This document shows, piece after piece, positions 21,409 to 58,348 of a stretch of 64,000 nt of DNA (its first letter is position 1; each line of letters opens with the position of its first letter). The DNA comes from Lentzea tibetensis (lineage in GTDB: Bacteria; Actinomycetota; Actinomycetes; Mycobacteriales; Pseudonocardiaceae). Location: contig NZ_VOBR01000009.1 in assembly GCF_007845675.1 (NCBI RefSeq), positions 186,001 to 250,000 on the forward strand, read 5' to 3'. The translations under genes and the position numbers were made by a program. The notes beneath the pieces are model-generated. The model worked only from the letters and a program-made list of their open reading frames with translations, was not told where the DNA came from and did not search any database.

Positions 21409-21672
21409 ATGAGTGACGACGATCTGCGGAAGCTGCGCGCCCAGGCGGCGGACGGCGACCAGGACGCCGTGGACCAGCTCGTCGAGCTCGCGGGCGAGCG
21501 GGGTGACTTCGACGAGTTGCGTCGGCTCGCTGACGAAGGCAGTAGCGACGCGGTGGACGTGCTCGTCGAGCTCGCGGGTGAGCGCGGGGACAAGGACGAA
21601 CTGCGCCGGCTCGCCGAAGCCGGTAGCAGTGACGCTGCCGACGTGTTGGCCGAGCTCGAAGACAGCGAGTAG
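21409..21672 (+). CDS. Short acidic helical-repeat protein
   Basis: An 87-residue protein; ATG 21409 behind AGGAGGCACGGC. It consists of repeats: QLVELAGERGDFDELRRLAD and VLVELAGERGDKDELRRLAE, with half units at both ends, like a tiny Sel1/HEAT array. It is strongly acidic overall. It is probably a protein-binding scaffold. It is the first chromosomal gene after the att array. Confidence 0.7.
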   Translation: MSDDDLRKLRAQAADGDQDAVDQLVELAGERGDFDELRRLADEGSSDAVDVLVELAGERGDKDELRRLAEAGSSDAADVLAELEDSE

Positions 21673-53738: not shown

Positions 53739-54218
53739 TTACGAGCGGGGAGCGTGACCGGCCTGGTCGGTCAGCATGCGCAGGCCGCTGACGAGACCAC
53801 CCGCGAGGTCGCCTTCCTTGAAGGACGCGACCATGCTCATCACCGCGAGCTTGGCGCCTCGATCGGGCAGCCTGCGGTGCGACTCCTCACCGGTGACGAT
53901 CTCGACGACGCGCTCACCCGGCGACACGGCGACGAGCACCGCGTGCGCGGGCCTGGCCGTCTGCGCGTGCAGCTCCTCGGCACGCGCGCGGCTCTCCTTG
54001 CCGAGCTCGCCGAGGTACACGCTGAAGTCGAGCCCGGTGCTGCGGCTGGACAACGTCAGCGCCTCGTCCAAAGAGGACAGCTGCGCGGGCGTGAACGGCA
54101 GCGACGGGGCGTGCGGCTCGTACATCTTGGCGACGGACAGCCTGCCGCTGTTCGTGATCGCCTCGCCGATCCCGAGCTCGCGGTCCGGGTCGACGCGCTG
54201 AATCTCACCAGTTGCCAC
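53739..54218 (-). CDS. DUF5130 (TPM-like) protein
   Basis: A 159-residue protein; GTG 54218 behind GGGGAGGTGCCC. It belongs to the DUF5130 family found throughout mycolate and related actinobacteria (LGIGEAITNSGRLSVAKMYE, then LDFSVYLGELGKESRARAEE and RRLPDRGAKLAVMSMVASFK). The fold is probably TPM-like. In M. tuberculosis the homolog follows pepN. Function unknown. Overlaps the end of ctaJ. Confidence 0.82.
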   Translation of the reverse strand: MATGEIQRVDPDRELGIGEAITNSGRLSVAKMYEPHAPSLPFTPAQLSSLDEALTLSSRSTGLDFSVYLGELGKESRARAEELHAQTARPAHAVLVAVSPGERVVEIVTGEESHRRLPDRGAKLAVMSMVASFKEGDLAGGLVSGLRMLTDQAGHAPRS

Positions 54219-54447
54219 GGGCACCTCCCCTTGCCGTCCGTCCACCCACGACAGCAGCCTCGGCCTCGGGGGCGCGGCTCAGGCCGGCGGGGTTGGCACT
54301 CCACCACACGGGGGCGTAGCCCCACTCCTGCCCCGGCCGGTACCGGGGAATCCGGGTGGCCTTGGGCCTAATCGTCAGAAGCGTGATCACGCCGTAGATG
54401 GCCAGCGGGATCAGCGCGAAGACGAGCACGGTCTCCACGATGGTCAC
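54205..54447 (-). CDS. ctaJ: aa3-type cytochrome oxidase subunit CtaJ
   Basis: An 80-residue protein starting GTG 54447 (TIVETVLVFALIPLAIYGVI). One transmembrane helix is followed by the conserved KATRIPRYRPGQEWGYAPVW and SANPAG. This matches CtaJ, a small accessory subunit in the actinobacterial bcc-aa3 respiratory supercomplex. A TACCGT box six bases upstream of the GTG suggests a leaderless transcript. Overlaps the DUF5130 gene by 14 bases. Confidence 0.82.
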   Translation of the reverse strand: MTIVETVLVFALIPLAIYGVITLLTIRPKATRIPRYRPGQEWGYAPVWWSANPAGLSRAPEAEAAVVGGRTARGGARGNW

Positions 54448-54829
54448 GGCGGTACGGTAACCGACTTCACCCGTGCGCGAGCGGCCGGGCCAGCGTGATC
54501 GCGCGTCCCGGTGCGATGTCCGGGAGTTTCCCCACACAGGCAGCCGCGATGATGAAGCAACCGGAACTGAGGACTGCGCACGCCTGAGCCGCCGAACCTG
54601 TCGTGACGAACATCACGTTCCACCGATTCGGACGCTACGCATCGTGTCCATACCGGCCAGTAGAGGCAGTGAGCGCTCTCGTGCGGCGCAGCGGTTACAC
54701 CCGGTAGGCCTTCACCCGGACGGCGGCGAACGGGTGCCGGTTTGGGGTCTTGTCCCTGGAACAACCGGCTTCTAGCTTTTCACCTATACGGGTCTTGCGC
54801 ACCCGCCCGACAGTCCTGGAGGACACATT
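54448..54829. other. Gap upstream of the repeat protein
   Basis: 382 bp with no gene I can support. It must hold the divergent promoters of ctaJ and the repeat protein. A small hairpin CGGGTcttgcgcACCCG lies about 35 bp before the repeat-gene start, in the likely 5' leader. No riboswitch is recognised. Confidence 0.5.
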
Positions 54830-55420
54830 ATGTTCACGACGAGCCGCCCCCAGGCACGCCTCCTCACCCTTCCGAGCTACAAGGACGATTCAGTGCGTAT
54901 CACGGCCAGTGACTCCGTTCGCATCACAGCGGGTGACTCCGTTCGGATCACTGCTGGCGATTCGGTCCGCATCACGGCCGGCGACTCGGTCCGCATCACC
55001 TGCGGCGACTCCGTTCGCATCACCGCGAGCGATTCGGTCAGGATCACCGCTGGCGACTCGGTTCGGATCACGATGGGCGACTCGGTGCGCATCACCATGG
55101 GCGACTCGGTCCGGATCACCATGGACGACTCCGTGCGCATCACGGCGGGCGACTCGGTGCGCATCACCTGCGAAGACTCGGTCCGCATCACGGCTCAGGA
55201 CTCGGTCCGCATCACGATGGACGACTCGGTCCGCATCACCTGCGAAGACTCGGTCCGCATCACGGCAGAAGACTCGGTGCGCATCACGATGAACGACGAC
55301 TCCGTGCGCATCACGTGCGAGGACTCGGTCCGGATCACCGCGGAGGACTCGGTTCGCATCACCATGGGCGACTCGGTGCGCATCACGGCGCGCAAGGACG
55401 AGCTGGCCCTGGCGGCCTGA
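54830..55420 (+). CDS. DSVRIT octapeptide-repeat protein
   Basis: A 196-residue protein; ATG 54830 with TGGAGGA upstream. A short N-terminus (MFTTSRPQARLLTLPSYKD) is followed by 21 copies of an eight-residue unit, DSVRIT plus two variable residues, and the tail RKDELALAA. The six core residues are invariant in all 21 units, while codons vary freely (four Ser, Val and Arg spellings), so the protein is under selection. Position 7 is Ala (11), Met (6) or Cys (4); units 12-20 cycle Cys-Ala-Met three times. One unit (17) has nine residues. No signal peptide or known domain. A beta-solenoid is the likely shape. Confidence 0.85.
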   Translation: MFTTSRPQARLLTLPSYKDDSVRITASDSVRITAGDSVRITAGDSVRITAGDSVRITCGDSVRITASDSVRITAGDSVRITMGDSVRITMGDSVRITMDDSVRITAGDSVRITCEDSVRITAQDSVRITMDDSVRITCEDSVRITAEDSVRITMNDDSVRITCEDSVRITAEDSVRITMGDSVRITARKDELALAA

Positions 55421-55427
55421 CACCGGC

Positions 55428-55952
55428 TCAGGCCGCGGGCTCACCCAGGTACGGCAGCCACTGCGGGTCGGCTTCGGCCACCCCGGCGAGCAGCCGCCAG
55501 TGCGGCCCGCGCGGAGCGGCGGGTACCACGCGCAGCCTCCACCCCAGCTCGGACAGCAGCTTGTCCGCCTTGCGGTGGTTGCACTTCGCGCAGCACGCGA
55601 CGCAGTTGGTCCAGGTGTGGGGCCCGCCCCTGCTGCGCGGCACGACGTGGTCGATGGTCTCGGCTCGGCCACCGCAGTACGCGCAGCGGTAGCGATCGCG
55701 GTGCATCAACCCGGCACGGGTCAGCGGCACCCGGCCGCGATAGGGAACGCGAACGTAGGTGCTCAGCCGGATGACGGACGGCACGAGCACCTCGGACGTC
55801 GAGGAGTGCAGCACGAGACCCGCGGGATCACCGTGCACGACCTCGGCCTTTCCGCACACGACGAGGACGACCGCGCGTCGCAGTGACAGCGCGGTCAGCG
55901 GTTCGAACGTGGCGTTGAGCAGAAGTACCTTGCGTCTTCCCCAGGGGAACAT
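55428..55952 (-). CDS. HNH endonuclease (Rv2469c-like)
   Basis: At least 174 residues from ATG 55952; the frame is open to 56096, so a longer form of up to 222 residues is possible. KVLLLNATFEPLTALSLRRA near the start is the family mark. The HNH core is RCAYCGGRAETIDHVVPRSR, then CCAKCNHRKADKLL, with two zinc CxxC pairs. It is widely conserved in actinobacteria; the cellular substrate is unknown. Convergent with the DSVRIT-repeat gene with only seven bases between. Confidence 0.88.
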   Translation of the reverse strand: MFPWGRRKVLLLNATFEPLTALSLRRAVVLVVCGKAEVVHGDPAGLVLHSSTSEVLVPSVIRLSTYVRVPYRGRVPLTRAGLMHRDRYRCAYCGGRAETIDHVVPRSRGGPHTWTNCVACCAKCNHRKADKLLSELGWRLRVVPAAPRGPHWRLLAGVAEADPQWLPYLGEPAA

Positions 55953-56248
55953 GACCGGGGTATGTCCGGCACCTCCCCCATCGCGATCCCCATCGGGCAC
56001 GGCGTGCACGGATGACTTATTTCGGCATGCGGGGATCACCGGCGCTACCTCACCCGATATGGGGGCGCCGTTGGGGGTCGGTTGTCGGTCTGGCACGCGA
56101 CCACCTCCACCGGTTCAGGCATAGCAGACCACAGATCACCCTCAAAAATCACGTGTGATAAGCGACGCGTCATGGATGTGTGATCGAAACTCAGGTGAAC
56201 GAGCTCCCTAAACGGGGATGGTTTTCATCGCCCGCTACCCTTGACAAG

Positions 56249-58348
56249 GTGACCGAGGCTCCCTCCACATCTCCGCCCGCGACGATCACGTACCCGCTCG
56301 CGGAGCGGCTAAACCTCATCGAGCACCTGCACGGGCGCGCGGTGGCCGATCCGTACCGCTGGCTCGAGGACGCGAACGACCAGCGGACCGAGACGTGGTC
56401 GGGCGAGCAGGACGTGCTCACGCGGTCCTGGCTGGACGCGATGCCCGGCCGCGAGCGCCTCGGCACCCGGTTGCGCGAGCTGATGCGCACCGGTTCGGTG
56501 TCCACCCCGACGTGGCGCGCGGGCCGCGCGTTCTTCACCCGGCGCGGGCCCGAGCAGGACCACCCGGTCGTCTACCTGCGCGAGCAGGACGGCACGGAGC
56601 GCGTGCTGCTGGACGTGAGCGAGCTGGACCCGTCGGGCCGCACGACGCTGGACGGGTGGTCGCCGTCGCTGGAGGGCACGCGGCTGGCGTACCAGGTCTC
56701 GGTCGGCGGCAACGAGCACTCGCTGCTGCACGTGGTCGACGTCGACAGCGGTGAGCTGATCGAGGGCCCGATCGACCGCTGCCGCTACTCCCCCATCGGC
56801 TGGCTGCCGGGCGGCGAGGAGTTCTTCTACGTGCGGCAGCTCGACCCGGCCGGTCTGCCGGAGGACGAGCAGCTGTTCCACCGCCGGGTGTGGCGGCACC
56901 GCGTCGGCGCGGACCCCGTGACGGACGTCAACGTGCACGGCGACGGCCTCGACCACACCTACTACTACGGGCTCAGCGTGTCGCAGGACGGCCGCTGGCT
57001 GGTCGTCAACGGCGCGCCCGGCACCGTGCGCCGCGACTCGGTGTGGATCGCGGACCTGCACGGCACCGGTGAGCTGAAGCCCGTCATCGACGCGGAGGCG
57101 GGCGCGCAGTGCTCGGCGTTCGTCGCGCGCGACGGGATGCTGTACGTCCACACGTCGCTGAACGCCTCGCGCTTCCGCATCTGCGTCGCGGACCCGGAGC
57201 GGCCGACGCCGGAGCACTGGGTCGAGCTCGTCGGCGAGGAACCGGACTCGGTCCTGGACGGTCTGCGCTGGCTGAACGGCACCCTCGTGGTGCTGCGCAC
57301 CAGGCACGCGGTGTCCGAACTGCACCTGCACGCGACCGACGGCGAGCACCTCGGCCAGATCCCGTTGCCCGGCACCGGGTCCGTGCACGGCATGTCCGTT
57401 GTGGACGCGGCGACCCCGCACGACCGCGACGCGCTGTGGGTCGGCTGGACGGACTTCGTCACGCCGCTGTCGGTGTACCGCTTCTCGCTGTCCTCCGGTG
57501 AGACGACGCTGGCCGAGGCCGCGCCGGGCCGCATCGAGCTGCCCGCGGTGACGACCCAGCAGATCTCCTACGCCTCGCTGGACGGCACGACCGTGCGCAT
57601 GTTCGTCGTGAGCGGCGAGCAGAGGCCCGACCTGCCGCGTCCCACGCTGCTGACCGGCTACGGCGGTTTCGCGATCGGCCGCGGCCCCGGTTACAGCGCC
57701 ACGACGCTGGCCTGGGTCGAAGCGGGCGGCGTGTGGGTGCACGTGTCGCTGCGCGGTGGTGACGAGGAGGGCGAGGAGTGGCACCACGCGGGCATGCGCG
57801 AGCGCAAGCAGAACGTGTTCGACGACTTCCACGCCGCCGCCGAACGCCTGGTGCGCGACGGCTGGACCACGCCGCAGCAGCTCGCGATCATGGGCGGCTC
57901 CAACGGCGGCCTGCTCGTCGGCGCGGCGCTGACGCAGCGCCCGGAGCTGTACGCGGCCGTGGTGTGTTCAGCCCCACTGCTCGACATGGTGCGCTACGAG
58001 AAGTTCCTGCTCGGACGGTTGTGGGCGGAGGAATACGGCAGCGCAAGCGTTTCCGACGAGCTCGGCTGGCTGCTCTCCTACTCTCCGTACCATCGCGTCC
58101 GGCCCGATGTTGAGTACCCTTCGGTCCTGTTCACGGTGTTCGAGTCGGATTCCCGCGTGGACCCCAACCACGCCCGGAAGATGTGCGCCGCGTTGCAACA
58201 CGCGAGCACGAGTGATCCGACCAAGCACCCCGTGCTCATCAGGCGCGAGACCGAGGTCGGTCACGCCGGCCGTTCGGTGAGCCGGACGGTCGCTCTCGCC
58301 GTGGACCAGCTGACGTTTCTGGCCAATGCCACGGGCATGGAGTTGTAG
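56249..58348 (+). CDS. Prolyl oligopeptidase family serine peptidase (PtrB-like)
   Basis: A 699-residue S9A enzyme. GTG 56249 is preceded at eight bases by TACCCT, a fitting -10 box for a leaderless message. The N-terminal seven-bladed propeller is followed by the hydrolase domain with the Ser in [11 protein letters not shown] (about 550), Asp in DSRVDPNHA and His in VGHAGRSVS (about 670). It cleaves short peptides after Pro or basic residues in the cytoplasm. Confidence 0.93.

Follow-up and report, generated by a model that had tools for sequence, protein, structure and literature searches.

A Pseudonocardiaceae-specific and apparently undescribed family of tandem short-repeat proteins whose repeated word is kept within arrays and exchanged between lineages

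The array protein encoded in the 64,000-nucleotide stretch of Lentzea tibetensis DNA analysed here (the window) represents, in Lentzea, a Pseudonocardiaceae-specific protein family that appears to be undescribed. Comparison of the window protein with its relatives shows that selection acts on the repeated word itself, and that the whole array switches word between lineages.

Results

The array gene and its protein

The reading frame consists of an N-terminal segment, the array and a tail, and nothing else. The gene, its parts and its two neighbours are placed as follows.

54205..54432, minus strand: ctaJ, a neighbour transcribed away from the array gene (NF050118, 90.8 bits against a cut-off of 43)
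54830..55420, plus strand: array protein gene, 196 aa, ATG start
54830..54886, plus strand: N-terminal segment ahead of the array, 19 residues, conserved
54887..55387, plus strand: 21 DSVRIT units of 8 residues each, one of them of 9
55388..55417, plus strand: C-terminal tail ARKDELALAA, with an ssrA-like ...ALAA ending
55428..56096, minus strand: HNH endonuclease-like gene, a converging neighbour (PF14279/PF01844)

The DSVRIT core is exact in all 21 units, which follow one another at 8 residues in 19 cases and at 9 residues in one (unit 17, MND). The units were picked by their exact core, which makes amino-acid identity a given, and the information lies in the synonymous divergence between units, with a pS of 0.491 in the core; the pN of 0.006 beside it is due to multi-step codon paths of Ser and Arg. 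At positions 7-8, pS and pN between units are 0.622 and 0.562, respectively. Across the family, the N-terminal segment retains a weak pattern near T3, P7, Q8/9, T13/14 and S/P16. Inspection by eye showed no hydrophobic stretch at the N-terminus of the window protein, which from its sequence looks cytosolic.

The antisense strand of the array (window 54889-55387, minus) is largely open in two frames, and one antisense frame is open across the array in nearly all relatives; this is a by-product of codon composition, usable as a control. Elsewhere in the window, at 21463-21658, an 84-bp unit is repeated 2.3 times (TRF score 217), by appearance a coding repeat.

The Cys-Ala-Met cycle at position 7, which the first-pass annotation had pointed out, does run three times through units 12-20. 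It is a local 72-bp duplication: a DNA periodicity of 72 nt (TRF period 72) underlies it, and among the lags from 1 to 9, identity within units 12-21 is highest at lag 3, with 0.851, and 0.708-0.812 elsewhere. None of the 25 related arrays shows the threefold cycle; A, M and C occur there in differing orders, and the closest relative (L033) has a single C-A-M run. Given the duplication, and the lack of the threefold cycle in relatives, the idea that the super-repeat is designed, with columns of Met and Cys, is not supported, and neither, in consequence, is the suggested metal or redox matrix.

The window tail (...LALAA) resembles the tmRNA tag of the same genome, ATSNDQRTAYALAA (...YALAA), and in this it is like ssrA-tagged ClpXP substrates. 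An LAA end is found in 47 of the 121 arrays read, namely 34 of the 38 SVRIT arrays and, as a difference from such substrates, only 13 of the 83 others, many of which terminate in the core itself; the background is 27 of 443 ORF ends, with the arrays still included. Since LAA ends concentrate in the SVRIT arrays, a degron at this end is a possibility that would be limited to that lineage.

Distribution of the family

The window protein was matched in 25 of 25 Lentzea genomes, with the homologues intact, so the refuting outcome named in the first-pass annotation, missing homologues or frameshifts in relatives, did not occur. Related loci in named genomes likewise number 25 (22 from Lentzea, two from Umezawaea and one from Nocardia sp. 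NRRL S-836, which places inside Lentzea in the HNH tree). Together with the window protein, these 25 have between 14 and 29 exact cores each, and 491 of the 500 core-like hexamers in the Lentzea/Umezawaea set read exactly DSVRIT. With the unit number varying to this extent among 26 proteins, the proposal that 21 units represent seven turns of a solenoid is not supported.

A profile built from ten proteins matched 108 of 391 family genomes, in 19 of 46 genera, and the loci found in this way encode the same protein type with the words GVRIS, GTRIT, GTRVT, GVRIE and GVRIH. Arrays in genera without profile matches were reached through the start-site motif described below. After removal of one false pick (L207) from 122 collected proteins, 121 arrays were read, from 39 of the 46 genera, a count that leaves out genus g44 and in which several genera are represented by arrays of no more than 2 to 5 units. 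No array was found in six genera examined: g30 (four genomes), g5 and g15 (two each) and g20, g41 and g45 (one each).

Neither Pfam nor NCBIfam offers a coherent family that fits the protein, and a search of the open-licence literature by peptide strings returned no paper on the array peptides, in agreement with the initial statement that no described family of this kind was known.

Genomic context

Within Pseudonocardiaceae, the array is the usual occupant of the gap between ctaJ and the HNH gene. The location assigned to it in the first-pass annotation is confirmed by the profile matches listed above; the added claim that it breaks a conserved gene order is wrong, the array being what this gap usually holds. 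Among 81 loci, which were selected by array or motif match, the start-site motif is present with up to four mismatches in 77, and in all 77 of these HNH and ctaJ lie on the expected sides, in one case (L104) with ctaJ 4.6 kb away. In 26 family genomes selected for an absent motif, the array lies beside HNH in 15 and is missing in 11; four of the 11 have ctaJ 77-141 nt from HNH with an empty gap, and in the other seven ctaJ does not adjoin HNH within the stretch examined. The array was also absent from four genomes from outside the family. Other named neighbours are DUF5130, a LuxR-type response regulator and an S9-like (prolyl-oligopeptidase-like) peptidase, the last of which lies at 56180-58348, two genes from the array, and is found likewise in many related loci.

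Two loci have a transporter-like gene of about 400 residues, MFS by eye, between ctaJ and the array (L032, 3591-4793, minus; L084, 3540-4736, minus). In many other Lentzea loci ctaJ lies about 1.5 kb from the motif, which is not so in the window.

The four of the 81 loci that lack the start-site motif (L101, 5001-5138, minus; L113, L114 and L121), all from genus g23, encode a different protein, small and secreted-looking, with a hydrophobic N-terminus and a few DSVRITS-type units, and have neither HNH nor ctaJ near. Two of these four proteins end in a GVCEGPDREHILC tail. In g23, the array between ctaJ and HNH has the word GTRVT instead.

Upstream region

Ahead of the array gene, the following elements were recognised.

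54750..54755, plus strand: -35-like hexamer TTGTCC, 17 nt from the -10-like hexamer
54773..54778, plus strand: -10-like hexamer TAGCTT, consensus tag.tT
54777..54797, plus strand: family-wide start-site motif, TTTTCACCTATACGGGTCTTG
54789..54805, plus strand: possible 5'UTR hairpin CGGGT-CTTGCGC-ACCCG, Lentzea only
54818..54822, plus strand: ribosome-binding site GGAGG, kept in the relatives compared

The two hexamers with their 17-nt spacing make up a putative promoter, and a CTTGT/TTGT hexamer stands at the corresponding place in the upstream sequences of relatives (consensus positions from 118 upstreams). Transcription would then start within or just 3' of TTTTCACC (start-site motif). The hairpin shows a compensating change (GGCT/AGCC) in L043, L048 and L051; it is absent in Umezawaea, and no Rfam match was obtained at its site.

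When the 118 upstreams were aligned, the motif was exact in 45 and within two mismatches in 102. The pattern TTTTCACCTnTAnGGGTCTTG, allowing up to two mismatches, was found in 241 of the 391 family genomes and its reversed-pattern control in none; among the matches listed it is single in each genome, one genome with two copies excepted. In a class-wide sample it was found in 8 of 394 genomes, six of them outside Pseudonocardiaceae, and as the control pattern likewise matched eight genomes, its occurrences outside the family are noise. In genera without profile matches, the motif led to arrays directly 3' of it in 16 loci, some of these being related loci, and in 30 further genomes (28 loci read out), with words that include GTRVT (six-residue period), GIRVN, GVRVN and GVRVT. 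In two of the 16, L164 and L165, the array frame was missing from the start-site reading, and a search for units gave 5 and 2, respectively.

The genome listed with two start-site motifs (G357, genus g35) has array matches on two contigs.

The repeated word

The cores are specific to lineages (DSVRIT, GVRIS, GTRVT, GTRIT, GIRVN, GVRIH and others) and have the general form G/S-[V/T/I]-R-[I/V]-polar, in arrays of 2 to 48 units across the family. Of the 1887 units in the 111 arrays of six units or more, 1846 carry the core of the array they belong to without change; a unit was counted only if at least four of five core residues matched, and strongly decayed units are thus missed. The median pS between units of these arrays is 0.503. 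Exact cores over diverged synonymous sites, in the window and in the 111 arrays, bear out the first-pass annotation in regarding this as an old, selected protein rather than the product of recent slippage.

On a tree of 135 HNH proteins, the 12 word labels require 16 changes, against a shuffled mean of 78.2, and none of 200 shuffles came as low. The words thus follow the HNH tree, which indicates that whole-array word swaps are rare. By this tree the most recent switch is that of L225 (GVRVT), which lies among GTRVT relatives; its pS of 0.256 is the lowest of the 111, with L200 and L118 nearly as low. In this one case, the low value fits a collapse of the array followed by re-expansion.

Core-to-core spacings concentrate at 6, 8 and 9 residues (545, 561 and 440 of 1758, respectively), and GTRVTx arrays contribute 476 pairs at spacing 6. 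Within one protein the spacing varies from 6 to 12 residues and longer, with up to 32 residues from core to core. Array net charge ranges from -11 to +60, aromatic residues are almost absent, and the array can be as short as 2-4 units (L165, L209, L216 and L196).

Four arrays (L208, L209, L092 and L165) are apparently decaying, with two or three intact units within longer frames. Outside the family, L238 and L242 contain near-perfect 24-bp DNA repeats that resemble VRIT/VRIG arrays in one frame.

Comparison with known families

The window protein scores 64 bits, against a cut-off of 30.7, with DUF2345 (PF10106), a family found in T6SS spike proteins. This score proves no membership, since at least seven other, mutually incompatible Pfam families also lie above their cut-offs (among the best 25 of 48 at E<=1). 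None of the nine reordered controls matched DUF2345 at E<=1e-6, and a unit-reversed control brought Gp5_trimer_C to 30.5, just below cut-off. Other matches of the reordered controls, to unrelated families, are strong (Fibrinogen_BP, 2.3e-18; ALTTAQ, 6.4e-20), and because such controls reach 1e-18 to 1e-20, the E-values of repeats of this kind mean little. A PDB-sequence profile search placed the T6SS spike proteins 6sjl and 8gra as the top two, weakly (E 0.0014 and 0.011), and PHROG baseplate-hub profiles score as well.

According to the passages that deal with these helices (PMC3004832, PMC4576200), gp5 has an octapeptide VxGxxxxx repeat with 8 residues per turn and its helix is capable of folding alone, and the triple-stranded beta-helix of T4 gp12 has about 6 residues per turn. 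In GVRIS arrays the residue after the core is G in 235 units, which thus read I-S-G, A in 58 and S in 49. DSVRIT arrays read I-T-A or I-T-M, with A, M or C at the place of the VxG glycine, and the VxGxxxxx motif carries little information. Judged by residue pattern, the grammar of the arrays agrees weakly with a gp5-type helix.

The likeness to the T4 gp5/VgrG (DUF2345) spike lies in the 8-residue repeat, the alternating beta pattern and the [VI]xG-like place of GVRIS arrays. In contrast to that system, the array repeats are far more exact, spacings of 6, 8 and 9 residues are mixed, and the family is confined to one bacterial family in the genomes sampled. No OB-fold, lysozyme, hub or other spike domain appeared in the 196 aa among the best 25 of 48 Pfam families, and no T6SS or phage tail genes among the neighbours scanned (ctaJ, HNH, DUF5130 and the LuxR-type regulator).

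The six-residue period of GTRVT arrays recalls T4 gp12 and the left-handed hexapeptide beta-helix (LpxD/NeuD). LpxD/NeuD-type NCBIfam profiles were weak on period-6 arrays (23.9 against a cut-off of 207), Hexapep reached 26.6 against 27 on a GVRIE array, and the hexapeptide profile stayed below its curated cut-off in all four arrays tried; unlike LpxD/NeuD, the arrays are without acyltransferase residues or partner domains. With the curli protein CsgA and with FapC, both of which stand among the weak Foldseek rows, the arrays share tandem beta-strand units. They differ from both in that they are not secreted by appearance, have Arg in each unit and apparently lack the Gln/Asn ladder pattern of those proteins.

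All known families tested fail a defining feature or give no secure assignment, and the array family is apparently new, within the known architectures of tandem short-repeat proteins and beta-helices.

Discussion

As the best reading of the array we propose, at somewhat less than even probability, a cytosolic beta-helical rod with a gp5/VgrG-like repeat grammar. Each unit would form one strand of the helix, in which V/T/I, I/V and the residue that follows point to one side and R and S/T to the other. A single chain could fold into a solenoid, or three could intertwine into a trimer of the gp5 type; the unit number would set the length of the rod, and an Arg and Thr/Ser ladder would form its surface. 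Like-on-like stacking would explain why units are identical within each protein and the word is free to differ between lineages. As a guess, such a rod may be a structural scaffold, on which one partner is held in many copies or which bundles with itself.

In this regard, AlphaFold2 (monomer, 23 rows) returned one strand per unit for the window protein, with a mean pLDDT of 76.2 and a pTM of 0.75, against 47.1 and 0.13 for an antisense-frame control (23 rows) that is a less perfect repeat and therefore incompletely matched. The three-faced beta-solenoid of the earlier proposal thus reappears in the model, with its weight reduced, since AlphaFold2 over-predicts such folds on perfect repeats: of 78 random ones, it modelled 32 as beta-solenoids with confidence (PMC11795689). 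The same study warns of implausible features, and stacked uncompensated Arg, here with a net charge of up to +60, is of such a kind and counts against the rod. So do the variation of spacing within proteins and the arrays of 2-4 units, which are too few for a monomeric rod. A Foldseek search against the PDB gave no match at E<=0.001. That the arrays constitute a new class, namely an intracellular, free-standing filament of phage-spike-type beta-helix, variable in length, with one uniform strand word replaced wholesale between lineages through collapse and re-expansion and with a dedicated family-wide start-site element, is a larger claim that we consider rather doubtful.

A close rival to the rod, and quite possible in our estimation, is a disordered multivalent array in which each unit is a short linear motif bound by a conserved partner as an added beta-strand; array length would then tune avidity, and word switches would represent co-evolution with the partner. 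The strong per-unit selection on identity, the spacers that vary in length and composition over 6 to 32 residues core to core, the scarcity of aromatics and the weak PDB structural matches all suit this explanation, and the spread of net charge from -11 to +60 implies that the word, not bulk chemistry, is kept. However, the tightest arrays (GTRVTx, spacing 6) leave scant room for a partner at each unit, and no partner was found. A conserved partner should fix the word, which instead changes en bloc, and the AlphaFold2 contrast with the antisense control also speaks against disorder. Improbable, in our view, is an amyloid-like or beta-stacked polymer, with stacking between as well as within chains to give an intracellular filament. 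The universal Arg, and in many lineages also a large positive charge, make in-register stacking less likely, and the protein is without a secretion signal or nucleator; alternating beta-branched residues, identical units and the tolerance of short arrays are in its favour, together with FapC and CsgA fibrils at Foldseek ranks 2 and 8, with scores (E 0.09 and 0.39) that are not significant.

A RiPP-like multi-core precursor, processed to short peptides, could account for an N-terminal segment followed by repeated short units and for the prolyl-oligopeptidase-like gene in the window and many related loci. We regard it as very improbable: a modifying or maturation enzyme was not recognised among the neighbours scanned, the window array has no Pro, a constant cleavage site is absent, and the units are hyper-conserved, not diversified. 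A DNA-level repeat without a protein role, either a slippage product or an array of binding sites, has next to no probability, the 72-bp duplications in units 12-20 notwithstanding, given the amino-acid identity of 111 arrays despite near-saturated synonymous sites and the joint conservation of the start-site motif, the ribosome site and the single locus.

Taken together, a single-copy gene that is found at one locus in most genera, whose start-site element of 21 bp is nearly invariant and whose units are under extreme selection, must serve a need of these bacteria, and Pseudonocardiaceae, a large antibiotic-producing family, have kept it in most of their genera. If the array does form a rod, it would offer a natural beta scaffold of near-perfect repeats that can be tuned, and one could test on it how far structure predictors are to be trusted with such repeats. 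If it is a binding array, one would expect its partner among the conserved proteins of these bacteria. On either reading, selection keeps the array uniform, and yet its word is exchanged from lineage to lineage.
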